This document shows, piece by piece, positions 15,697 to 30,529 of a stretch of 36,611 nt of DNA. The stretch lies in contig JARLGK010000063.1 in the NCBI GenBank assembly GCA_031296075.1, positions 1 through 36,611 of the forward strand. Reading direction: 5' to 3'. A program made the position numbers and the translations under genes. This DNA is from Candidatus Acidiferrales bacterium (lineage in GTDB: Bacteria > Acidobacteriota > Terriglobia > Acidiferrales > UBA7541). Numbering within the stretch: position 1 is the first letter of the stretch; every line of letters starts with the position of its first letter. The notes beneath the pieces are model-generated. The model was not told where the DNA came from, ran no database searches, and saw only the letters and a program-made list of their open reading frames with translations.

Positions 15697-17235
15697 ATGA
15701 CAAATACTCCCCCAATTATGGGAACCGCAGCCACGCCAACCTCCGGCGAACTGGTCAAAGGTCTCGGCCTGTTCGATTCGACGATGATCGTCGTCGGCTC
15801 GATGATCGGCTCCGGGATTTTTATCGTCTCTGCGGACATCGCGCACCAGGTGCAGAGTCCCGGCCTGTTGCTCCTGGTCTGGCTCGCTTCCGGCCTGATC
15901 ACACTGATCGGTGCGCTGAGTTTTGGCGAGCTTGCCGCGGCGATGCCTCACGCTGGCGGCCAATACGTATACCTGCGCGAATCGTGCGGGCAGGTCTTTG
16001 GCTTCCTCTACGGCTGGACGATGCTTCTCGTCATCCAGACCGCCACTATCGCAGCCGTGGCCATCGCGTTTGCCAAATTCACAAGCGTCATCGCGCCGTG
16101 GTTCTCGGCCTCGCAATGGATTGGCGGGCACGGCAAATTCGGGCCGTGGCGATTGTGGTTCGGCGAGTTGGGTCCCTACAACGTGGGACTCAATCGTCAG
16201 AACCTGCTGGCGATGGTTTCCATTATTTTCCTTACGTGGATCAATACGCGTGGCCTTCGGTTGGGCAAAATCGTACAGAACGTTTTCACCGTCACCAAGA
16301 TCGCATCGCTCGCCGGATTGGTCCTGCTCGGGCTGGTCTTTTCAACCGTCGTCGCTCGCGGCGCGAACTTTGCAGGTTTCTGGCGCAATGCCGGCTGGTC
16401 CGTGATGCATCCGTATCCGCCCGACAACTCAACATGGATGATCGGCACGCTGACGCTGGTGGGTGTGGCGATGGTCGGTTCGCTTTTCGCCATGGACGCG
16501 TGGAACAGCGTCACGTTCACGGCGGCCGAGGTCAAGAACCCGGGCCGCAACCTGCCGCTGTCGCTCGCGTTCGGGACCGGGATCGTGATCTTGCTCTACA
16601 CGCTGGCGAACGTCGCGTATCTGCGAGTGCTCCCGCTCTCCGGCGATCCGCACGGCGCGACGGCGCTGCTGCGGGGAATCGAGTTCGCGGCTGATGGGCG
16701 CGTGGCAACCGCGGTCACGGGTGTGATTTTTGGCCCCGTGGGCGCGATCCTGATGGCGATCGCGATAATGATTTCCACTTTCGGCTGCAACAACGGCTTG
16801 ATTCTGGCCGGCGCGCGAATCTACTACGCCATGTCGAAGGACGGCCTCTTCTTTCGCGCCGTCGGAACGGTAAACCGCAATCACGTTCCCGCCGTTGCAC
16901 TCGTCGCGCAATGCATCTGGGCGTCGGCCCTCTGCCTGTCGGGAACCTACGGTCAGTTGCTCGACTTCCTGATCTTCGCGCAGCTTCTGTTCTATATCTT
17001 GACGCTCGGCGGACTTTTTATTCTTCGCTGGAAACGTCCGGGAATGGATCGTCCGTACCGCGCGTTCGGCTATCCGCTGCTGCCGGCGCTCTACATTCTG
17101 ATAGCCGGATTTCTCGAAATCCAATTGTTGCGGTATAAACCACAGTACACTTGGCCCGGCTTAATCATCGTTTTGCTTGGGCTGCCGGTTTACGGGCTGT
17201 GGAAACTGGCAGGGAAGTCGCCGGCAAGAACGTAA
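15697..17235 (+). CDS. APC-superfamily amino acid permease
   Basis: GLFDSTMIVVGSMIGSGIFIVSADIAHQ...; 12-TM-like hydrophobic pattern, SFGELAAAMPHAGGQYVYLRE. Confidence 0.9.
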   Translation: MTNTPPIMGTAATPTSGELVKGLGLFDSTMIVVGSMIGSGIFIVSADIAHQVQSPGLLLLVWLASGLITLIGALSFGELAAAMPHAGGQYVYLRESCGQVFGFLYGWTMLLVIQTATIAAVAIAFAKFTSVIAPWFSASQWIGGHGKFGPWRLWFGELGPYNVGLNRQNLLAMVSIIFLTWINTRGLRLGKIVQNVFTVTKIASLAGLVLLGLVFSTVVARGANFAGFWRNAGWSVMHPYPPDNSTWMIGTLTLVGVAMVGSLFAMDAWNSVTFTAAEVKNPGRNLPLSLAFGTGIVILLYTLANVAYLRVLPLSGDPHGATALLRGIEFAADGRVATAVTGVIFGPVGAILMAIAIMISTFGCNNGLILAGARIYYAMSKDGLFFRAVGTVNRNHVPAVALVAQCIWASALCLSGTYGQLLDFLIFAQLLFYILTLGGLFILRWKRPGMDRPYRAFGYPLLPALYILIAGFLEIQLLRYKPQYTWPGLIIVLLGLPVYGLWKLAGKSPART

Positions 17236-17300
17236 GGTTCCCTCTTAGCGCCAAGAGGACGATTCCGGCACTGGCGCGGTCCAACACGGGGAGGCTGTGC

Positions 17301-18842
17301 ATGGCAAGCCATCTGTTTGCCACCAAGTCGCTGAAGGTCATCATGGCCGAGGCGGAGGATACGGGGGAACACTCCCTGCGCCGAGCGCTCGGCCCGATCA
17401 ATCTGATCACGCTCGGCATCGGCGCCATCATCGGCGCGGGAATTTTTGTGCTGACGGGGCAGGCCGCAGCCACCAGTGCGGGGCCCGCGATAGTTGTGTC
17501 GTTCATCCTGTCAGGAATCATCTGTGCATTCGCGGGTCTGTGCTACGCCGAATTCGCTTCGCTGATTCCCATTTCCGGCTCGGCCTATACATATGGCTAC
17601 GCGACCCTGGGTGAGCTATTCGCGTGGATTATCGGATGGGATTTGATTCTGGAATATGCATTTGGCGCCGCCACGGTAGCTTCAGGATGGAGCGGCTACG
17701 CCGTCAGTCTATTGGAAGACCTGGGGTTGCACATCAGTCCGAGGTGGATCGCGACGCCTGGGACCGAGATGGTTTTCTACAAAGGGCACTGGGCCGAGCT
17801 TGGCTCCATCGGGCAAGCGTTAACGGCTGCGGGCGTTGACTCAGCGGTCCTCCCGCATGCGGTCGCCGCATTTAATCTTGTCGCGTTCGTCGGCATCTTC
17901 GTGGCCACATTCATCCTGGTCGTGGGGATCAAGGAGTCGGCGAATCTCAACTCGGCGATTGTAATCTTGAAAGTCGCGATTGTATTGGTCTTCATCGCCA
18001 TCGCAGGGACCTTCGTCATTCGACATCCGTCGCTCGCGGCCTCCAACTGGCATCCGTTTATTCCGCCCAATACCGGGAAGTTCGGCGAATTCGGTCTCTC
18101 CGGCGTGGCGCGCGGCGCGGCTGTGATTTTCTTTGCCTACATAGGCTTCGACGCGGTTTCAACAGCCGCGCAGGAGGCGAGGAATCCGCAAAAGGATATG
18201 CCAATCGGGATCATCGGATCGCTGGTGATCTGCACGGTTCTCTACATTCTGGTTTCGGGTCTGTTGACGGCGATGGTTCCATATGCAGATTTGAATGTCT
18301 CCGCTCCGGTCGCTGTCGCCATTGATGCTACCGGCGTGCGCTGGGGCAGCCTGCTGGTGAAGGCGGGCGCCGTTTTGGGTCTGGGCAGCGTCATGCTCGT
18401 GATGCTGCTCGGTCAGTCCCGCGTGTTTTATTCGATGTCGCGCGACGGTCTTCTGCCGAAATGGGCGGGAGCGATCCATCGCCGCTTTCGCACGCCGTGG
18501 ATATCCTCCATTGTCGTGGGAATTTGCGTCGCCGGATTCGCATCATTTATTCCGATCGGCGATCTCGCTGTCCTGGTGAACATCGGAACACTGCTCGCAT
18601 TCCTGATCGTCTGCGCCGGGGTGTGGATACTTCGCCGGAAGCGACCCGATCTTCCGCGTCCGTTCAAGACGCCGCTGGTGCCGCTGGTGCCGATTCTCGG
18701 GATACTCACGTCTTTGGCGGCCATGCTCAGCCTTCCTGCGAAGACGTGGTGGAGATTGCTTATCTGGCTGGTGATCGGAATGGTGGTTTACGTCTTCTAT
18801 GGCCGGACCCACAGCAAGGTTCGGAACGCATCCCCGCGATAG
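17301..18842 (+). CDS. APC-superfamily amino acid permease (cationic amino acid transporter type)
   Basis: HSLRRALGPINLITLGIGAIIGAGIFVLTGQAAATSAGPAIVVSFILSGIICAFAGLCYAEFASLIPISGSAYTYGYATLGELFAWIIGWDLILEY; likely start ATG 17301 (MASHLFATKSL). Confidence 0.93.
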   Translation: MASHLFATKSLKVIMAEAEDTGEHSLRRALGPINLITLGIGAIIGAGIFVLTGQAAATSAGPAIVVSFILSGIICAFAGLCYAEFASLIPISGSAYTYGYATLGELFAWIIGWDLILEYAFGAATVASGWSGYAVSLLEDLGLHISPRWIATPGTEMVFYKGHWAELGSIGQALTAAGVDSAVLPHAVAAFNLVAFVGIFVATFILVVGIKESANLNSAIVILKVAIVLVFIAIAGTFVIRHPSLAASNWHPFIPPNTGKFGEFGLSGVARGAAVIFFAYIGFDAVSTAAQEARNPQKDMPIGIIGSLVICTVLYILVSGLLTAMVPYADLNVSAPVAVAIDATGVRWGSLLVKAGAVLGLGSVMLVMLLGQSRVFYSMSRDGLLPKWAGAIHRRFRTPWISSIVVGICVAGFASFIPIGDLAVLVNIGTLLAFLIVCAGVWILRRKRPDLPRPFKTPLVPLVPILGILTSLAAMLSLPAKTWWRLLIWLVIGMVVYVFYGRTHSKVRNASPR

Positions 18843-18872: not shown

Positions 18873-20867
18873 ATGAGCCGATTCTCTCCGCGCCGTTTGT
18901 GGCTCTTCCTGAGGCGGACCTCGCCGCTCGACCGTATCGCCTTCGCCCTCCTGGTCCTCGACGTAGCCGGACGCGTGGCCCGCTCCTTGGGCGCCGCATT
19001 CCCCTTCTCGACGTTGCTCGGTTTTCTCGGTTTCGCGGCCATCGTCTATTTCGTGGTTCGCTTGGTGCCCTGGGTCCGCACGCGAGTCCTCTGGAGCCTG
19101 CGAAATCGGCTGATCGTTGCTTACATCCTCATGGCGGTAGTTCCCATCGTCCTGCTAGTTACGATGATCGGCATCGCCACCTATCTTTTCTATATTCAGC
19201 TGGGCGCGCATTTGCTGAATGACGCTGTCCAGCAGTCCACCAAAGTGATTGACACGGACGCGGACACCGTTGCCGGTGCGGTTGAACGAGAGGCGCTTCA
19301 TAGCAGCACTCCCGTTGGCGCCGACGTGCTCACCCGGCCGATCATCGCGGGCTTGATTTCAGACGAGCAGTCGAGTTGGCCGGGGCTGACCGTTTCCTTG
19401 AATCGAGGACAGCGCCTCTTGGCAACCGCCAACGGAAAGCGTTACGCGGGGTTGGTGGCGTATCAGGAACAGCTCTCGTTCGTGGCCGCGCAGCGACGCA
19501 CGGTGCCCTCGGGGTCCTTCACCGTGCTGGTCATCGCTCCCTTGACCTCGCAGATTCTCGACAAATACCCGGAGGAGTTAGGGCCCATTCAATTGATTTT
19601 GATGCGGCCCGCGCAGACAGGAGCCGCAGGCGGGCTTTCGCTGGACATCAAAGGAACCCTCTACGCGACGGGCCAACAAATCGCCAGTACGAGGCGAAGT
19701 CTCCCCAGTTCCCGGAGCTGGTTCGATCCGCGCCTTCCGGGCGTCTCCATATTCGACGTTTACCACATTGTCGAAGAGGGGAAGGACGCGCCGGATGCCC
19801 CCGTCTGGGCATCTTTCTTGTTGCGTCCGTCGTCGGTGAACAGCGGACTCTTCAATTCCATGGGAGCTCTGGGGCCTTATCTTCTGTACATACTCCTCGT
19901 GGCGGGCCTGATATTCCTGGTTCTGGAAGTCGCGGCGCTGGCCACAGGCACAATCCTGACGCGCACGATCACCCGTTCGGTCGGCGATCTTTACGATGGC
20001 ACCCTGCATGTGCGCCGGGGCGATTTCAGTCACCGCGTGCGAGTCACGAATCGTGACCAGCTCGCTTCGCTCGGAGAGTCGTTTAACGAAATGACCAGCT
20101 CGATCTCCGAGCTAATCGAAGGACAGCGCGAGCGCCAGCGCCTGGAGAACGAGGTCGAGATCGCCCGGCAGGTTCAACAGCAACTCTTCCCGCATTCGAT
20201 CCCGTCTCTGCCGGGCCTCGAGCTTGCAGCCATCTGCCGTCCCGCTCGGGTGGTCAGCGGAGACTATTACGATTTCATCTCTCTCGGACCGTCCCGCGTC
20301 GCTATCGCCCTCGCGGATATCAGCGGCAAGGGAATTTTCGCCGCGCTTCTCATGGCCAGCCTTCAGGCCGCGTTGCGGAGCACCGCCGCGCTGGAAGGGC
20401 ATGTCGGGACTGCCGAAATCGTCTCGCAGTTGAATCGGCATCTTTTCAAGAACACGTCCGACGACCGCTACGCCACACTCTTCTACGCGGTGTACGATGC
20501 GGAAGCCAAGACTCTCACGTATACGAACGCCGGCCATCTGGCTCCCATTTTCATTGAAGATGGCGCGGTCCAGGCTCTCGACCAGGGCGGGACCGTCGTG
20601 GGCCTGTTTGAGGACGCCGCCTACACGGAGTGCACACTGCCCGTCAAGCCGGGAACTCTGATGGTGGCCTTCAGCGACGGATTGACGGAACCCGAAAGCG
20701 TATATGGCGAGGAATTTGGGATGGAGCGCCTGAACATGGAAGTGCTTCGCCACCGTAATGCGCGTGCCGCACGCATCGCGGAGAATCTCGTGGTGGCCGC
20801 CGAGCAGTGGGCAGGCACTCCCGAACAGGCGGACGACATGACGGTTGTCGTCGCGCGCATGGGCTAG
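18873..20867 (+). CDS. Membrane HAMP-domain SpoIIE/RsbU-type PP2C serine phosphatase
   Basis: N-terminal TM segments, extracytoplasmic region, HAMP (LTRTITRSVGDLYDGTLHVRRGDFSHRVRVTNRDQLASLGESFNEM), then EVEIARQVQQQLFP...VSGDYYDFI...ALADISGKGIFAALLMA...TYTNAGHLAPI...FSDGLTEP. Confidence 0.93.
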   Translation: MSRFSPRRLWLFLRRTSPLDRIAFALLVLDVAGRVARSLGAAFPFSTLLGFLGFAAIVYFVVRLVPWVRTRVLWSLRNRLIVAYILMAVVPIVLLVTMIGIATYLFYIQLGAHLLNDAVQQSTKVIDTDADTVAGAVEREALHSSTPVGADVLTRPIIAGLISDEQSSWPGLTVSLNRGQRLLATANGKRYAGLVAYQEQLSFVAAQRRTVPSGSFTVLVIAPLTSQILDKYPEELGPIQLILMRPAQTGAAGGLSLDIKGTLYATGQQIASTRRSLPSSRSWFDPRLPGVSIFDVYHIVEEGKDAPDAPVWASFLLRPSSVNSGLFNSMGALGPYLLYILLVAGLIFLVLEVAALATGTILTRTITRSVGDLYDGTLHVRRGDFSHRVRVTNRDQLASLGESFNEMTSSISELIEGQRERQRLENEVEIARQVQQQLFPHSIPSLPGLELAAICRPARVVSGDYYDFISLGPSRVAIALADISGKGIFAALLMASLQAALRSTAALEGHVGTAEIVSQLNRHLFKNTSDDRYATLFYAVYDAEAKTLTYTNAGHLAPIFIEDGAVQALDQGGTVVGLFEDAAYTECTLPVKPGTLMVAFSDGLTEPESVYGEEFGMERLNMEVLRHRNARAARIAENLVVAAEQWAGTPEQADDMTVVVARMG

Positions 20868-22524: not shown

Positions 22525-22978
22525 CCGCGAGCTTGTCACGCACTCTTCTGAAGAAACTATCCAGCGCGGCCGCGAAATCGGCGCGCAGTTGAAGGCGCCC
22601 GTCCTGGTGTTGCTCTCGGGAGACTTGGGGGCGGGGAAGACGACACTGACGAAGGGCATCGCCAGCGGCCTGGGCGCAGCCGGCGAAGACGAAGTGACCA
22701 GCCCGACTTTCACGCTCGTCCATAAATACGATCGCGACGCGACGGTCTATCACGTGGACCTCTACCGCATTGGCGACATCCACGATCTTGAAACGCTGGG
22801 CCTGGAGGATGTGTTCGCCGAGAAAGCGGTGGTGATCGTCGAGTGGCCCGACAAGCTCGCGCTGCGGACCGATTGGCCCGTCGTGCGCATTCGGCTGGAA
22901 CATGTCAGCGAGGATACTCGCCGCATCCAAATCGAGGATCCGGCACAGGCGCTTTCGACCGGGCCTACAGCCCCATAA
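22517..22978 (+). CDS. tsaE: tRNA threonylcarbamoyladenosine biosynthesis ATPase TsaE
   Basis: LLSGDLGAGKTTLTKGIASGLG...EVTSPTFTLVHKY...VYHVDLYRIGD...GLEDVFAEKAVVIVEWPDK. Confidence 0.95.
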   Translation: MASRELVTHSSEETIQRGREIGAQLKAPVLVLLSGDLGAGKTTLTKGIASGLGAAGEDEVTSPTFTLVHKYDRDATVYHVDLYRIGDIHDLETLGLEDVFAEKAVVIVEWPDKLALRTDWPVVRIRLEHVSEDTRRIQIEDPAQALSTGPTAP

Positions 22979-23735
22979 TCTGGAATCCGGCGTCCACGTA
23001 AAGGATATTCCCGGTGATGCCGCGCCCGAGATCGCTTCCGAGGAATACAGCCGCGTCCGCGACTTCAGCAATGTCGGTATTGCGCCGCAGCGGCGCCCGT
23101 TGCGCCGCAATCTCGAGCATCTTCGACAGGTCCTTCACCCCGCGCGCAGAAATCGTCTTGATCGCGCCGGCGGAAATGGCGTTCACGCGAATGTTGCTGG
23201 GTCCCAGCTCGCTGGCGAGGTATTTCACCTCGGCTTCGAGAGCGGCTTTGGCTACCCCCATGACGTTGTAGTTGGTCACCACCCGCGTGGACCCCAGGTA
23301 GGTCAGCGTCATAATCGCGCCACCGCTGGTCATCAGCGGCGAAAGCGCCTTGGAAATCGCGACCAGCGAGTAGGCGCTCACGTCGAGCGCCAGTTGAAAC
23401 CCTTCGCGCGAGGTTTGCAGGAAGGGTTGATTCAAATCCTCGTGTTTTGCGGCCGCCAGGCTGTGAACCACGATATCGAGTCGATGACCGGCCGCCAACA
23501 GGGATTCCGCCATGCGGTCAATATCCGCCTGTTCCTGGACCTCGCACGGGAAGAAGCCGCTGGCCCCCAACTCGCGGCCGAGTTCCTCAACTGCGGGTTT
23601 GGCCCGCTCATTTTGATACGTGAGCAGCAGCTTGGCACCTTCGCGGGCAAATGCTTGCGCGATCGCGTACGCGATGCTCCATTTGTTCCATACGCCGAGA
23701 ACGATTGCGGTCTTTCCCTGAAGTAGCTTCGACAT
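22965..23735 (-). CDS. fabI: Enoyl-ACP reductase (NADH), FabI type
   Basis: MSKLLQGKTAIVLGVWNKWSIAYAIAQAFAREGAKLLLTYQNER...; TLTYLGSTRVVTNYNVMGVAKAALEA (Yx6K); RVNAISAGAIKTISARGV. Start at internal Met 23735. Confidence 0.95.
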   Translation of the reverse strand: MSKLLQGKTAIVLGVWNKWSIAYAIAQAFAREGAKLLLTYQNERAKPAVEELGRELGASGFFPCEVQEQADIDRMAESLLAAGHRLDIVVHSLAAAKHEDLNQPFLQTSREGFQLALDVSAYSLVAISKALSPLMTSGGAIMTLTYLGSTRVVTNYNVMGVAKAALEAEVKYLASELGPSNIRVNAISAGAIKTISARGVKDLSKMLEIAAQRAPLRRNTDIAEVADAAVFLGSDLGRGITGNILYVDAGFQIMGL

Positions 23736-23796
23736 GGCTGGACATTTTACCCGTAAACGCTGAATTCGGCTGCATGTGTTCGCGCCAACCAGGACG

Positions 23797-24132
23797 TCAG
23801 TGCGAATGCATCCACCGCATGATTTCGCGCACCAGATCGGCAATCACCGGCCACAGGAGCCCCGCAATCGCCGCGATGGCCGCAAGCGTCCGCTTCGAAC
23901 CCGTCACCTTCGGAAGGCTCGTCGCTCCGGGCCGATGGCTGGCGCAGTAACCGCCCTCCAGTGCGCGTCGGTCGCATCGCTGCCCACTCGGGCCGAGATA
24001 TAAGCACGGACCTTGATCGATGCCGCTGTTGGCTATCGGCCGGTTCAAGCCGGTTGGAATGGGCATTTCGACGTCCCAGCTCGCAGCCGAAGTATCTTCG
24101 AATGTGTCGTTTGCAGAGCCATTCGCTTCCAT
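23797..24132 (-). CDS. Small hypothetical protein with Cys3-His motif and C-terminal TM helix
   Basis: PCLYLGPSGQRCDRRALEGGYCASHRPG (C-x9-C-x9-C-x2-H) followed by hydrophobic TLAAIAAIAGLLWPVIADLVREIMRW; upstream of and co-directional with fabI. Confidence 0.6.
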   Translation of the reverse strand: MEANGSANDTFEDTSAASWDVEMPIPTGLNRPIANSGIDQGPCLYLGPSGQRCDRRALEGGYCASHRPGATSLPKVTGSKRTLAAIAAIAGLLWPVIADLVREIMRWMHSH

Positions 24133-24261: not shown

Positions 24262-26766
24262 ATGCCGGAAACAAACATCGCGCCTCCTCCAGCCCATCCC
24301 GCGCGGATGAAGCTTGAGCCCTACGCCGCCGAAATCCGGCTGACCAACCTAACTCTGGGGATTGACAATATCCATTATGACGTTTTTCTGAGCCCGCGCT
24401 TTGTGGAATTCACGCGGAAGTATTTGGGGGACCTGGTTCGCCAGTCCGTCAACGTCAACCTGCTCTACGGGAAGGACAAGGACCGCAAGCAATCGGGCTC
24501 TCCGGAGCACGCCGCGTTCCGCAAACTGCTCACGGATATCCTGCAAGAATCGACCACCCGCGCGAAATTCTTGCAGTCCGTCGAGACCGACGTGCTCCAC
24601 CATCTGGCTCTGCTGAAATTCATCAGCCAGGAAACCGGCAACCAGTTTTCCAGCATTCTGGTCGAGTGCAAGGATTGGATCCGCGGCCGCGGCGAGTTAT
24701 TCGAGCACAGCGAGCAGGCGCACGTGATGCGCTCGAAGATCGCCGAGATGCAAGCGGACCGCAAGAACGTGATCCGCCAGGTCGGAGAGACGCTGTGCCG
24801 CGTCTGGCGCGAAGTCGAGGAAGGCACGGTCTCGAAGACGCGGCGCGCTCTTTTCGGCGAGGACATTCCGGAGGCTTATCCGCTTCTGCAGAACCGTTTC
24901 CTGTTCGTCGAAGGCGGCAACGACGATCAGTTCTTCCTCGAGCATTACGTTCTGCTCGGCAATTTCGTGAACGATCCGGACCGCTTCGAGACGTTCGACG
25001 CGCTCCTTCTCGAATTCGTTCGCGGCTACGTGCTGGCCGGGGACAGCGCCGAGGAGCTTTCGAAGGCCCGCAACGCCCACGAGCGTCTGCTGGAGCAGGC
25101 GCGATTGCTGCGTTCGGAGTTGGCACGCGTCGAATCCGAGCACGACGACGCGGCCTCCCGCGCAGGTGATGGCGACCGATCGTTCCCCTCGCTCTTCAAA
25201 CGAAAGCCCACGGCAGGAGCCGGCGCGCAAGGGGAGTTGGATGACCTTCGCCGAAAGACCGCTTCCCTGGAAAAGAATCTGGAAGAACTCGACCCGCAGA
25301 TTGTGTCCGCCCGGCAGCGCCTGGAATTTCTGACCGAAGATCTCCAGAACCGCCTGGGCGATTATCTGAACCAGCCCGCCAACGCACATCGTCTTTTCGA
25401 CGCGCACGCCGCAGCGGGCGAAGCCGCGTCGTCCGAAGGCGAGTCGGCCTCCGATACGCGCGCGAAATTGCTGGAGGAATGGGTCCACCGGCTGGAGGAG
25501 CGCGACCTCCTATTCCACGTTCTCGCCAGCTACGAGATGCGCAAGATTTCCGCGGACTATTGCCCGCCCGTCCACTTGCAGCAGCTAAAAAAAGCGCTTG
25601 TCCAGCGCGAGGAAACGAAACGGGTGGCGCAAATATTGGAAAAGTTTCCGGCCCGGAAGGTCTCGATGAAGAAGCTTGAGGAAGCATCTCGCGCCATCCG
25701 TCGCCGGACCACGGAAGAAACCTTGAGCGTGGGCCTGCAATTCGCCGAAGACCTCATGCGATTGCGCCGCGATCGCCGCAACTACCAGCAAGTTGCCGCG
25801 TGGATGGAGCGGATCAGCCTGGTCTATTCGGAGCGCGCCCGTGAGCTTTCTCGCTCGAACAAGAGCCTCTATGAATTTCTGCACCCCGAGGAAAACCGGC
25901 CCGCCGACGATCCCGTGATCAACCACGTGGTCATCAAGGCGGACGTCCGTGGCTCGACCAGCATGACCAAGGACCTGCTCGCGCGCGGCATGAATCCCGC
26001 TTCGCATTTCAGCATGAACTTGCACGAGCCCGTGAAACGCATGCTTGAGCGTTACGGGGCCGCGAAAGTATTCATCGAGGGCGATGCCATCATCCTGGCG
26101 ATTTACGAGACCGAATCAACGCTGGCGACGCGCCGGGCAGTGGCTCGCGCCTGCGTGCTGGCGCGTGAGATTCTGGCCGTCACCGCCGCGTACAACAATC
26201 GCGCCAAGACAGCCGATCTTCCGCCGCTGGAACTCGGCGTGGGCGTCGCGTTCCAGGATTCCGCTCCTTCTCTCTGGGAGGACGCCGACTCCAAGATCAT
26301 GATCTCCCGCGCGCTCAACCTCTCGGACCGTCTTTCGAGCTGCGCGAAAATGGCGAAACGCCTGTTTCAGTCAAACCCGTCGCCTTTTAACGTTTTCCTG
26401 CTCCAGACCCTAATGGATGACGCGGCGGACGACGAAAGCGAAGAGCTGCAGGTGCGTTACAACTTAAATGGCATCGTGCTGAACGAAGAAGGTTTTCAGA
26501 AGCTCAGCGCCGAGATTGCGCTGTCGTTGATGGGAGGCAATTTTCCGATGCCGTGGGGAAAAGAGCGCGTGCAGCTCTACTTTGGGGAAGTTCCGCTCGG
26601 GGAATCGCTCGAGCCGATTGTGGTGCGCAAGGGGTTCGTGCGCCAGCTTCTGCCCGGCGGGAAGATCGGCGCACAGGGGACCCGCGTTTACTACGAAGTC
26701 TGCACGGACGCGAAGCTGCTCGACCTCGCGCGCAGGAAATTCGCCGCCGTCTCGCCGAAGAACTAA
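24262..26766 (+). CDS. Large hypothetical protein with coiled coil and divergent class III nucleotide-cyclase-like domain
   Basis: 834-aa ORF. The C-terminal third reads HVVIKADVRGSTSMTKDLL...VKRMLERYGAAKVFIEGDAIILAIYE...PPLELGVGVAF...SRALNLSDRLSSCAK, which aligns by eye to the FADIRGFT / KFIGDALMAVF / RIGIGI / VNLAARL blocks of class III cyclases. Long charged central region. Confidence 0.75.
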   Translation: MPETNIAPPPAHPARMKLEPYAAEIRLTNLTLGIDNIHYDVFLSPRFVEFTRKYLGDLVRQSVNVNLLYGKDKDRKQSGSPEHAAFRKLLTDILQESTTRAKFLQSVETDVLHHLALLKFISQETGNQFSSILVECKDWIRGRGELFEHSEQAHVMRSKIAEMQADRKNVIRQVGETLCRVWREVEEGTVSKTRRALFGEDIPEAYPLLQNRFLFVEGGNDDQFFLEHYVLLGNFVNDPDRFETFDALLLEFVRGYVLAGDSAEELSKARNAHERLLEQARLLRSELARVESEHDDAASRAGDGDRSFPSLFKRKPTAGAGAQGELDDLRRKTASLEKNLEELDPQIVSARQRLEFLTEDLQNRLGDYLNQPANAHRLFDAHAAAGEAASSEGESASDTRAKLLEEWVHRLEERDLLFHVLASYEMRKISADYCPPVHLQQLKKALVQREETKRVAQILEKFPARKVSMKKLEEASRAIRRRTTEETLSVGLQFAEDLMRLRRDRRNYQQVAAWMERISLVYSERARELSRSNKSLYEFLHPEENRPADDPVINHVVIKADVRGSTSMTKDLLARGMNPASHFSMNLHEPVKRMLERYGAAKVFIEGDAIILAIYETESTLATRRAVARACVLAREILAVTAAYNNRAKTADLPPLELGVGVAFQDSAPSLWEDADSKIMISRALNLSDRLSSCAKMAKRLFQSNPSPFNVFLLQTLMDDAADDESEELQVRYNLNGIVLNEEGFQKLSAEIALSLMGGNFPMPWGKERVQLYFGEVPLGESLEPIVVRKGFVRQLLPGGKIGAQGTRVYYEVCTDAKLLDLARRKFAAVSPKN

Positions 26767-26983: not shown

Positions 26984-28255
26984 TTAGTGGATGTTGCGGG
27001 TCTTCCGGCCGACGTAATCCATCAGCAGATACTGCCCGAGGGTGTAAGGCGTGGTGAAGTAGGCCTTGCCGCGGCAGAGCTCCGTAACTTTCTGAACGAA
27101 GTGCACCAGGCTGTAGTCGCTCGCCAGCATGAAGGTATTGATCAGGATCCCGGCGCGCTTGCACTTGGCGACTTCTTCCATCGTCTGCGTAACCACCAGC
27201 GGATCGAGGCCGAACGCGTTCTTGTAAATTCGGCCGTCCTCCAGCGTCAGCGCCGATGGTTTTCCGTCGGTGATCATGATGATCTGGCGCATGTCTTTTT
27301 TCTGCCGGGATAGAATACGCTGCGCGAGCCGCAACCCTTCGCGGGTGTTCGTGTAGTACGGGCCCACTTGCACGCGCGCCAGCTTGCCGATGGGAATTTC
27401 CTCGGCGCTATCGTGGAACAGCACGCAGTGCAATGAATCGCCGGGATACTGCGTGCGAATGAGATGCGAAAGCGCCAGCGCCACGCGCTTGGCAGGCGTG
27501 AACCGGTCCTCGCCATAGAGAATCATGCTGTGGCTGCAATCGAGCAGCAACACCGTGGCGCACGAACTCTGGTATTCGCACTGGTGGACCATCAAATCCG
27601 GATAATCGAGCTCGATCGGGAGGGTCAGGCCGTTGCGCTGTACCGCGTTGAAGAGCGTCCCGCTGATGTCCATATTCAGCGTGTCGCCGAACTCGTATGG
27701 TTTTGAGCTGCCGCCCGATTCCACGCCCGTTGCCATGTCGCGCGTTTCGTGCCGGCCGAAACTGCTCTTGCCGAGCGAGGCCAGCAGGTCCTTCAGCGTC
27801 TTGAAGCCGAGAAAATCGAGCGCCTTGTCCGTGATTTCAAAGCGCGCCTCGACATTCGGCTGGTCCTGGCCAATCTGTCCTCCGGGCGTCTCGGAAGGTG
27901 GGGGAGTCACGCGCGCGGACTGCTGCTGCGTGATCAGTCCCTCTTCCTCCATTCGCTGCATGATCTGGTCAATTAAGTCGCGGAGTTCCTGATTCTTTGA
28001 GAGGTCGGGATTCTGCTGCAGCTGCTCGAGAAGTTCTGGCGGAATCAGATCGCCTTCCTGAAGGGCCCGCAGGATCGCTTCGCGCAGCTGGTCCATATGG
28101 TGCTCGCGCGAGCGCTCCATATCGAGCTCGTGGAAGCCATATTGCGATTCGAAGCCGCTCTGCAGAAAGAAATCCGAGAGCCGGTTCATCAGCTCCTGCA
28201 GGTCTATATCGTCCGCGGCGCCGGGGGCGTAGCGTGAATATTTTGTATATTTCAT
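26984..28255 (-). CDS. VWA-domain protein
   Basis: MIDAS motif LLLDCSHSM (DxSxS) and [11 protein letters not shown]; acidic/Gln-rich helical N-terminus; directly downstream of the AAA+ gene. Confidence 0.88.
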
Positions 28256-28285: not shown

Positions 28286-29773
28286 CTAATTAAACTGGCG
28301 CCGCGGCATGCGGCCCGAAGGCTCGCGCGGTTCGCGCGGTTCAGGTGTCTTGCGCGTTTCGGCGAAGAAACCGCGTTCCTCGCTTCGGTTGACGCGCTTG
28401 TGCGCCCAGAGTCCCTCAAGAATAAACTCGGCCGCGCTTGACTGGATGGCGGCATCGTCCTTGGAACGAACACCAAGCGTTTCCAGGTGTTCGAAAAGGC
28501 CCTGAATCTTCTTGAGCTGGCCCAGCAGCTCGCCGCTGGCTGCATTCGCCGGCACCTTCAGCTCTCCGCCGATTTCAAACCACTGCACAACTTCCTGAAA
28601 GTTCACATCCTTGAAATATTTGGTGAAGGTCTTGCCGATGGCGGCGCGAATCAGTTCCCGCGCGATGTTGTCCGCGCCCCGCATTTCGCCCTCGTACTCG
28701 AGTTCGAACTTCCCGGTCATCGAGGGTATGGCGGCGTACACGTCGGATACCCGTGCGACCACGGCGGAATCATGGCTGCGCACGGCGCGCTGCTCCGCGC
28801 TGCTGAGCACGTTTTCGAGCGTGCTGATCGGCAACCGCTGGCTGACGCCGGAGCGGCGGTCCACGCGCTTATCCTCGCGAGCCTGAAACGCCACTTCCTC
28901 GACGATCTCGCGAATGTATTCCGGCACCTGCACGTGGCGCTTGCCGTCGCGGTTCGTCCACGATTCCTGCGCCGTGATGGCCATGCCCTCGGCCACGGTC
29001 GCAGGGTAGTGGGTGCGAATTTCGGAGCCGACCCGGTCCTTCAGGGGAGTGATGATCTTTCCGCGCGCGGTATAGTCCTCCGGATTCGCGGTAAACACGG
29101 GCAGCACGTCCAGCGCCATCCGCACGGGATAGCCCTTAATCTGGATGTCGCCCTCTTGCATGATATTGAACAGGCCGACCTGAATTTTCCCGGCGAGATC
29201 GGGCAGTTCGTTGATGGCAAAAATACCGCGATTGGCGCGGGGCAGCAGGCCGTAGTGGATGGTCAGCTCGTCGGAAAGATTTCGTCCCCCGCGCGCGGCC
29301 TTGATCGGGTCCACGTAGCCGATCATGTCCGCAATCGTAACGTCGGGCGTGGCGAGCTTTTCCACGTATCGCTGGTCGCGGCCAAGCCAGGAAATCGGCG
29401 TGGCATCGCCCTCCGCGGCGATTCGCTCGCGGCAGACGCGGCAGATCGGGCGATACGGGTTGTCGTTGATCTCGCAGCCGGCGACGACGGGAATCTGCGG
29501 ATCGAGAAACGCAACCAGGCCGCGGAGAATGCGCGACTTGGCCTGTCCGCGCAATCCGAGCAAAATGAAATGATGGCGCGAGAGCACGGCATTGGTGATC
29601 TGCGGGATCACCGTGTCGTCGTAGCCATGAACCCCCGGGAATATGGGCTCGCCCTTTTCGAGCTTCTGCAGGAGATTCTCGCGGAGCTCCTGCCGGACCG
29701 TCCGCTGCGCCATCTTTTCTTCTGACCAGGGACTGCGGCGAAGGTCGCCCAAGTTTTTCGGTTGTGGACTCAT
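28286..29773 (-). CDS. Magnesium-chelatase/MoxR-like AAA+ ATPase with atypical Walker motifs
   Basis: HHFILLGLRGQAKSRILRGLVAFLD...TIHYGLLPRANRGIFAINELPDLAGKIQVGLFNIMQEGDIQIKGYPVRMALDVLPVFTANPEDYTARGKIITPLKDRVGSEIRTHYP. Confidence 0.9.
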   Translation of the reverse strand: MSPQPKNLGDLRRSPWSEEKMAQRTVRQELRENLLQKLEKGEPIFPGVHGYDDTVIPQITNAVLSRHHFILLGLRGQAKSRILRGLVAFLDPQIPVVAGCEINDNPYRPICRVCRERIAAEGDATPISWLGRDQRYVEKLATPDVTIADMIGYVDPIKAARGGRNLSDELTIHYGLLPRANRGIFAINELPDLAGKIQVGLFNIMQEGDIQIKGYPVRMALDVLPVFTANPEDYTARGKIITPLKDRVGSEIRTHYPATVAEGMAITAQESWTNRDGKRHVQVPEYIREIVEEVAFQAREDKRVDRRSGVSQRLPISTLENVLSSAEQRAVRSHDSAVVARVSDVYAAIPSMTGKFELEYEGEMRGADNIARELIRAAIGKTFTKYFKDVNFQEVVQWFEIGGELKVPANAASGELLGQLKKIQGLFEHLETLGVRSKDDAAIQSSAAEFILEGLWAHKRVNRSEERGFFAETRKTPEPREPREPSGRMPRRQFN

Positions 29774-29905: not shown

Positions 29906-30529
29906 TCAGTTCAGGGTGTGGCCATTTCCGCCTGAGAGTTTGCGCGTGCGCTGCACGGCCACGAGCTTTGGGAGAAATCGCTCCATCCAGCGCAGCACAA
30001 ACTCGCGCCGGTCGTGCTGCGAGCGCATCTCGAGCAGTGCTTGCCTCTTCTCCAGCTCCATCGGCAGGAGAGCCGCCATGCGGTACGCGAGTGTTCCTGT
30101 CTCTTCCGCCGCCACGTCCATCCAGGGTCTTCCGAAAAGAACCGCGTGGCATTTCTCAAAGATCTGGAGGAGCTGTGCTTCCTGTTCGACATCGTGAGCA
30201 GGAGCGCCATCCTGCACATAATCGACCGCGCCTTCGTAGTATTCCTTCTCGTCGAACAACTCCGTCAGGTGAAAGACGTCCCGACCTTTCGTCAGGATGT
30301 CCATTCGACCGTCGGGATAATCTCTGAGCTTTTGGACGATCTCCGCTGTGCAGCCCACTGCCGCCACGGACTGATTCGCGGCCAAAATCATCCCGAATTC
30401 GAGCTTTTCTTCGAGGCATCGCGCAATCATCAGCTTGTATCGCGGTTCAAAGATGTGGAGGGGAAATTCCGAGCCTGGCATCAGCACCACGTCGAGCGGA
30501 AATAGCGGAATGCGGTTTGGTCTCTGCAT
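29906..30529 (-). CDS. LON peptidase substrate-binding-domain protein
   Basis: NRIPLFPLDVVLMPGSEFPLHIFEPRYKLMIARCLEEKLEFGMIL...GRMDILTKGRDVFHL. Confidence 0.9.
   Translation of the reverse strand: MQRPNRIPLFPLDVVLMPGSEFPLHIFEPRYKLMIARCLEEKLEFGMILAANQSVAAVGCTAEIVQKLRDYPDGRMDILTKGRDVFHLTELFDEKEYYEGAVDYVQDGAPAHDVEQEAQLLQIFEKCHAVLFGRPWMDVAAEETGTLAYRMAALLPMELEKRQALLEMRSQHDRREFVLRWMERFLPKLVAVQRTRKLSGGNGHTLN

Follow-up and report, generated by a model that had tools for sequence, protein, structure and literature searches.

The 834-residue protein encoded within the 36,611 nucleotides of DNA from Candidatus Acidiferrales bacterium analyzed here (the window) belongs almost certainly, as judged by fold and homology, to the class III cyclase superfamily, of which it is a divergent representative. 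It stands for a putative class III nucleotidyl cyclase family that has not been labelled before, is recognized by none of the Pfam, NCBIfam and PADLOC models searched, and is not described in the open-access papers in which we looked for it. By the tests run, the family falls outside both the canonical adenylyl and guanylyl cyclase subfamilies and the Pycsar cyclases. Its novelty lies in the base pocket: the catalytic residues are constant, while the residues that choose between ATP and GTP are replaced by others that are equally constant (position 679 is Ile in 86 of 87 distinct homologs and Val in the remaining one). We assign a probability of about 0.6 to the reading that the protein works in the cytosol as a homodimeric class III nucleotidyl cyclase and selects its base in a non-canonical way.

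The reading frame, which opens with ATG and translates through 834 codons, has exactly the extent given in an earlier reading of this DNA (the original prediction). Both the start methionine and the full-length frame are shared with close relatives, at identities of 92 to 49%. Nucleotide differences from two of the nearest relatives number 52, 22 and 301 (L013) and 99, 56 and 396 (L014) at the first, second and third codon positions, respectively; since they fall mostly at third positions, the frame is a genuine gene on which purifying selection acts. No transmembrane segment was found in this large protein (maximum 19-residue hydropathy 1.33), which is soluble and most likely cytosolic. Its parts, and two genes downstream, are located in Table 1.

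Table 1. Positions in the window of the cyclase gene, its parts and two downstream genes.
Feature	Positions	Strand	Basis or remark
Cyclase-like protein gene, 834 aa (stop codon included)	24262..26766	+	ORF, homologs and codon-position bias
N-terminal region, residues 1-256, conserved, mostly helical; motifs GIDN..(Y/H)DV.LS, R.LFG and DPDR	24262..25029	+	Invariant alignment columns
Predicted coiled-coil hairpin, residues 260-370	25039..25371	+	DSSP of model; alignment gap in L002-L006
Second helical region, residues 371-547, ending in long helix 485-516 into catalytic domain	25372..25902	+	Alignment and models
Class III cyclase homology domain (CHD) core, about residues 548-716	25903..26409	+	Structural matches (Foldseek), CyaC and Cya2 among them; ordinary cyclases reached by profile
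K559-A-D561-V-R563, with first metal Asp (D561)	25936..25950	+	Invariant, 87/87; control Phe at D1-2, 26/28
F604-I-E606-G607-D608, with second metal Asp (D608)	26071..26085	+	Invariant, 87/87; control Lys, 25/28; ungapped hhalign register
I679-M-I-S682-x-A-L-N686-L-S-D689-R690, with transition-state Asn and Arg	26296..26331	+	M680, I681, S682, N686 and R690 87/87; I679 86/87; control Thr/Asp, 26/28
C-terminal helix and long beta strands, residues 717-834, with conserved YEVC	26410..26763	+	Model; cyclase alignment extends into region
VWA-domain protein	26984-28255	-	Convergent with cyclase gene
MoxR/ChlI-like AAA ATPase	28286-29773	-	Adjoins VWA gene

The assignment to class III is carried by predicted structure and by family profiles. 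The full-length AlphaFold model, a single chain built with 24 sequences, reached pLDDT 78 and pTM 0.62, and its best Foldseek match in the PDB was CyaC (1wc0, E 3.0e-06). A single-chain model of residues 484-834, built with 81 homologs, reached pLDDT 88 and pTM 0.80 and matched Cya2 best (2w01, E 1.7e-08, probability 1.00), with Foldseek TM (target) values of about 0.6-0.7 against isolated cyclase domains. For each model, 50 of the 50 PDB matches listed were class III cyclases. The strands at residues 552-563, 601-606 and 609-617 and the GD turn at 607-608 are placed in the model as they are in cyclases. The original prediction of a divergent class III cyclase domain is thus supported by the predicted fold, and also by the invariance of the metal aspartates (see below). 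The family profile reaches the ordinary cyclases of related genomes (L066-L069) with E values of 1.4e-06 to 6.4e-04 per genome and with the catalytic Asp, Asp, Asn and Arg in register, and alignment of the family to 13 ordinary cyclases by hhalign gave E 1.4e-06 and a probability of 90.5%. Pfam and NCBIfam identified no domain anywhere in the 834 residues, no PADLOC model matched, and PF00211 was neither among the families listed for the protein nor among the 25 best represented for 24 members of the family (E <= 1). Searches of the PDB returned nothing informative for the single protein and only coiled-coil noise for a profile of the full alignment; a profile of the C-terminal alignment found CyaC at E 0.56, which is not significant alone.

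Outside the catalytic core, the predicted coiled-coil hairpin is found in Acidiferrales-type members and is missing from shorter relatives of about 740-770 aa, which have otherwise retained the N-terminal region, the middle helical region and the cyclase part. A search of 121 genomes of the class detected the N-terminal region in 31, always within a long frame of the size seen in the cyclase family, apart from one fragment split between contigs. We considered the region as a free-standing domain and rejected this, as none occurs outside the cyclase fusion in those 121 genomes. The original prediction recognized no sensor, and the N-terminal region indeed matches nothing. It was also right that the upstream part holds no known domain, but the last 110 or so residues, for which it likewise recognized no match, are probably not a separate domain. 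The cyclase match spans about 270 columns in both fold searches and reaches into residues 717-834, so that this stretch looks like an elaborated last helix and strands; on the models, it is probably the end of the cyclase fold itself and not a domain of its own.

The cyclase-like blocks pointed out originally were all found: KADVRGST (residues 559-566), KVFIEGDAI (602-610), ELGVGVA (657-663) and ALNLSDRL (684-691). Chance matching of these motifs is ruled out by the metal aspartates D561 and D608 and the transition-state residues N686 and R690 (N-x3-R), which are unchanged in 87/87 distinct homologs. Invariant in the same 87 are K559, F604, E606, M680, I681 and S682. With CyaC, Cya2 and the PF00211 cyclases the family shares the predicted fold, the strand-helix order, the metal Asp pair and the Asn-x3-Arg arrangement; unlike them, it has no PF00211 match and bears a long C-terminal extension.

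Missed in the original prediction was the altered base pocket, in which the purine-selecting Lys and Thr/Asp have given way to invariant residues. For comparison, the same positions were read in 28 class III cyclase domains from the same lineages, mostly PF00211 matches. These have Phe two residues before the first metal Asp (D1-2, 26/28), Lys four before the second (D2-4, 25/28), Thr or Asp seven before the Asn (N-7, 26/28) and Gly four before it (N-4, 27/28), whereas the family has K559 at D1-2, F604 at D2-4, E606 at D2-2, I679 at N-7 and S682 at N-4. Neither the canonical Lys (adenylyl) or Glu (guanylyl cyclases) at D2-4 nor the Asp/Thr or Cys/Gly at N-7 is present in the family, where F604 and I679 stand instead. 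Phe and Lys appear to have been exchanged, with Lys on the first strand and Phe on the second, and in the alignment Ile stands in for the second purine contact, although I679 is assigned less certainly than the other pocket positions, owing to a gap that immediately precedes M680. For strand 601-606 the register could shift by one residue, as the HMMER alignment to CyaC gaps at E606 and sets V603 opposite the Lys, whereas hhalign and the family profile set F604 there; in neither register does a Lys occupy the base position. We know of no described cyclase with a Lys/Phe/Glu pocket. Taken at face value, these substitutions make non-canonical base selection likely in the family.

The base-contacting Lys is present in nearly all class III cyclases, and in its absence activity could be either lost or changed. 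If it were lost, the cyclase fold would bind a nucleotide, or nothing, and act as a dimerization or sensing module for the N-terminal region. Loss of both the Lys and the Thr/Asp fits such a pseudoenzyme, as does the strong conservation of an N-terminal region never found without the cyclase domain. We nevertheless consider it unlikely, because the four catalytic residues are invariant and dead cyclase domains usually lose a metal Asp or the Arg. From this invariance, catalytic activity of some kind, summed over all substrates, is likely.

An ordinary adenylyl or guanylyl cyclase would likewise have intact catalytic residues; it would make cAMP or cGMP and contact the purine through different residues, for example K559, E606 or the Asp conserved at about position 674. 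Class III enzymes do tolerate changes in base-selecting residues, the K101E/D157G mutant of Ma1120 keeping much of its ATP activity (PMC4215837), and the genome encodes CRP-type cNMP-binding proteins. The pocket changes, however, are invariant in 87 homologs drawn from several families, which suggests a selected specificity and not drift, and the same genome already carries two ordinary PF00211 cyclases; on balance, this explanation seems doubtful. Nine matches to cNMP-binding domains lie on six contigs of this genome, none of them linked to the cyclase gene, and several of the cNMP-binding proteins could be receptors.

Some guidance as to the pocket comes from the cytidylate cyclase EaPycC, which has metal aspartates D102 and D146 and requires F100, R142 and Q144 for CTP (PMC11224242). 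By numbering, these three residues occupy D1-2, D2-4 and D2-2, positions altered in the family, where other residues are found. The pocket is therefore a natural place for a changed specificity, although the base used is not indicated by this correspondence. A comparable precedent, reached by the same kind of reasoning, is the DUF2652 set, also computationally predicted to be divergent, cytosolic class III-like proteins that lie outside PF00211 and have altered base-selecting residues (PMC4886424). Those are single-domain proteins of about 250 aa from Actinobacteria, Bacteroidetes and Proteobacteria, with conserved Lys-Glu or Glu-Lys/Arg pairs and, in the mycobacterial set, Ile in place of the Asn (PMC4886424); the 834-residue protein does not match the DUF2652 Pfam family.

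When 299 genomes of the class were searched with the C-terminal profile, 90 (about 30%) gave a match, usually in a single copy, and the members are mostly about 740-940 aa long. Homologs lie on the Terriglobia/Acidiferrales side of Acidobacteriota and extend to other families of the class, many of them in near-complete genomes of low contamination. When the search was widened over the phylum, full-strength matches occurred only inside the class; those outside it were weak, with E values (about 6e-04 to 9e-04) like those that ordinary cyclases give. Searches of plasmids, phages and viral contigs gave no family match, and a mobile or phage origin was rejected for this reason. In one genus of the same family (g172), the gene is missing from all 5 sampled genomes (G339, G389, G407, G430 and G454), a natural loss, as nearly all the other genera of that family have it.

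Throughout its own family and order, the gene is preceded by genes for a HAMP-SpoIIE phosphatase, NnrDE and TsaE, often with FabI nearby, and the VWA/MoxR-type AAA pair lies downstream on the opposite strand. The shorter relatives have a different upstream set, with an M28 peptidase or a TPR protein. A conserved operon partner was therefore rejected, no gene kept across the whole family being found in the neighbourhoods compared, and the synteny looks vertical and not functional.

Several of the surrounding genes are worth recording in their own right. The VWA and MoxR/ChlI-like proteins, a possible chaperone pair, are also encoded near the cyclase gene in L013, L017, L027, L030, L076 and L082, and in the window a stand-alone Lon substrate-binding (N-terminal) domain protein (29906-30529, -) adjoins the MoxR gene. 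Upstream, the HAMP and SpoIIE-type phosphatase (18873-20867, +), whose synteny with the cyclase gene extends over the order, is also a signalling protein for which no partner is obvious. It follows two tandem amino-acid permease genes whose listed frames overlap (15697-18842, +). Between TsaE and the cyclase gene lies a FabI-like enoyl-ACP reductase (22965-23843, -); its listed frame has a TTG start and shares a few bases with the end of TsaE, which suggests that translation probably begins further inside the frame.

No cNMP receptor, phosphodiesterase or effector gene adjoins the cyclase gene, and neither PycTM nor PycTIR was found beside it, the neighbours being TsaE, FabI, VWA and MoxR-type AAA genes. 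This bears on a further possibility, a pyrimidine cyclase with cCMP or cUMP as its product, like the PycC proteins of Pycsar (EaPycC, BcPycC and AnPycC), which have the class III fold and the two metal aspartates in common with the family. The positions that set the CTP specificity of EaPycC are those changed here (PMC11224242), but the residues of the pocket are unlike the F/R/Q of EaPycC, the Y/D/R of BcPycC and the F/K/F of AnPycC. Moreover, the PADLOC PycC models are unmatched, and Pycsar is a defence cassette with an effector gene, whereas the family occupies a conserved, syntenic chromosomal locus. We therefore regard a Pycsar-like enzyme as decidedly improbable. A related caution concerns L066:2335-4563 (-), a class III cyclase of the ordinary kind in which the motifs are typical. 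It matches a PADLOC 'PycC' model at E 6e-26; these models thus respond to ordinary cyclases as well, and such matches alone should not be read as Pycsar.

For a cyclase with non-canonical base selection, the conserved positions suggest the following course. Class III cyclases all pair head to tail, and by analogy two C-terminal domains would do the same. D561 and D608 would hold two divalent metals, and N686 and R690 would stabilize the transition state on the way from an NTP to the 3',5'-cyclic NMP and pyrophosphate. The base would be chosen by the altered pocket of K559, F604, E606 and I679 in place of the usual Lys and Thr/Asp, and for this reason neither ATP nor GTP can be assumed as the substrate. 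The N-terminal helical region, together with the coiled coil where present, would dimerize the protein and relay an input signal to the catalytic domain by way of helix 485-516.

Acidobacteriota are abundant in soils, and cyclic-nucleotide signalling among them has been little studied. From its conserved residues, the family may make a cyclic-nucleotide signal. A more speculative and improbable reading is that this chromosomally conserved family makes a cyclic nucleotide distinct from cAMP and cGMP, with cCMP, cUMP and a modified or deoxy-nucleotide as examples, which is selected through the Lys/Phe/Glu pocket and serves as a housekeeping, non-defence messenger. The family is widespread, retains the full catalytic set and has a base pocket that is both rewritten and invariant. 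It allows one to test cleanly how the base is selected in class III enzymes, and also whether non-purine cyclic nucleotides serve outside phage defence.
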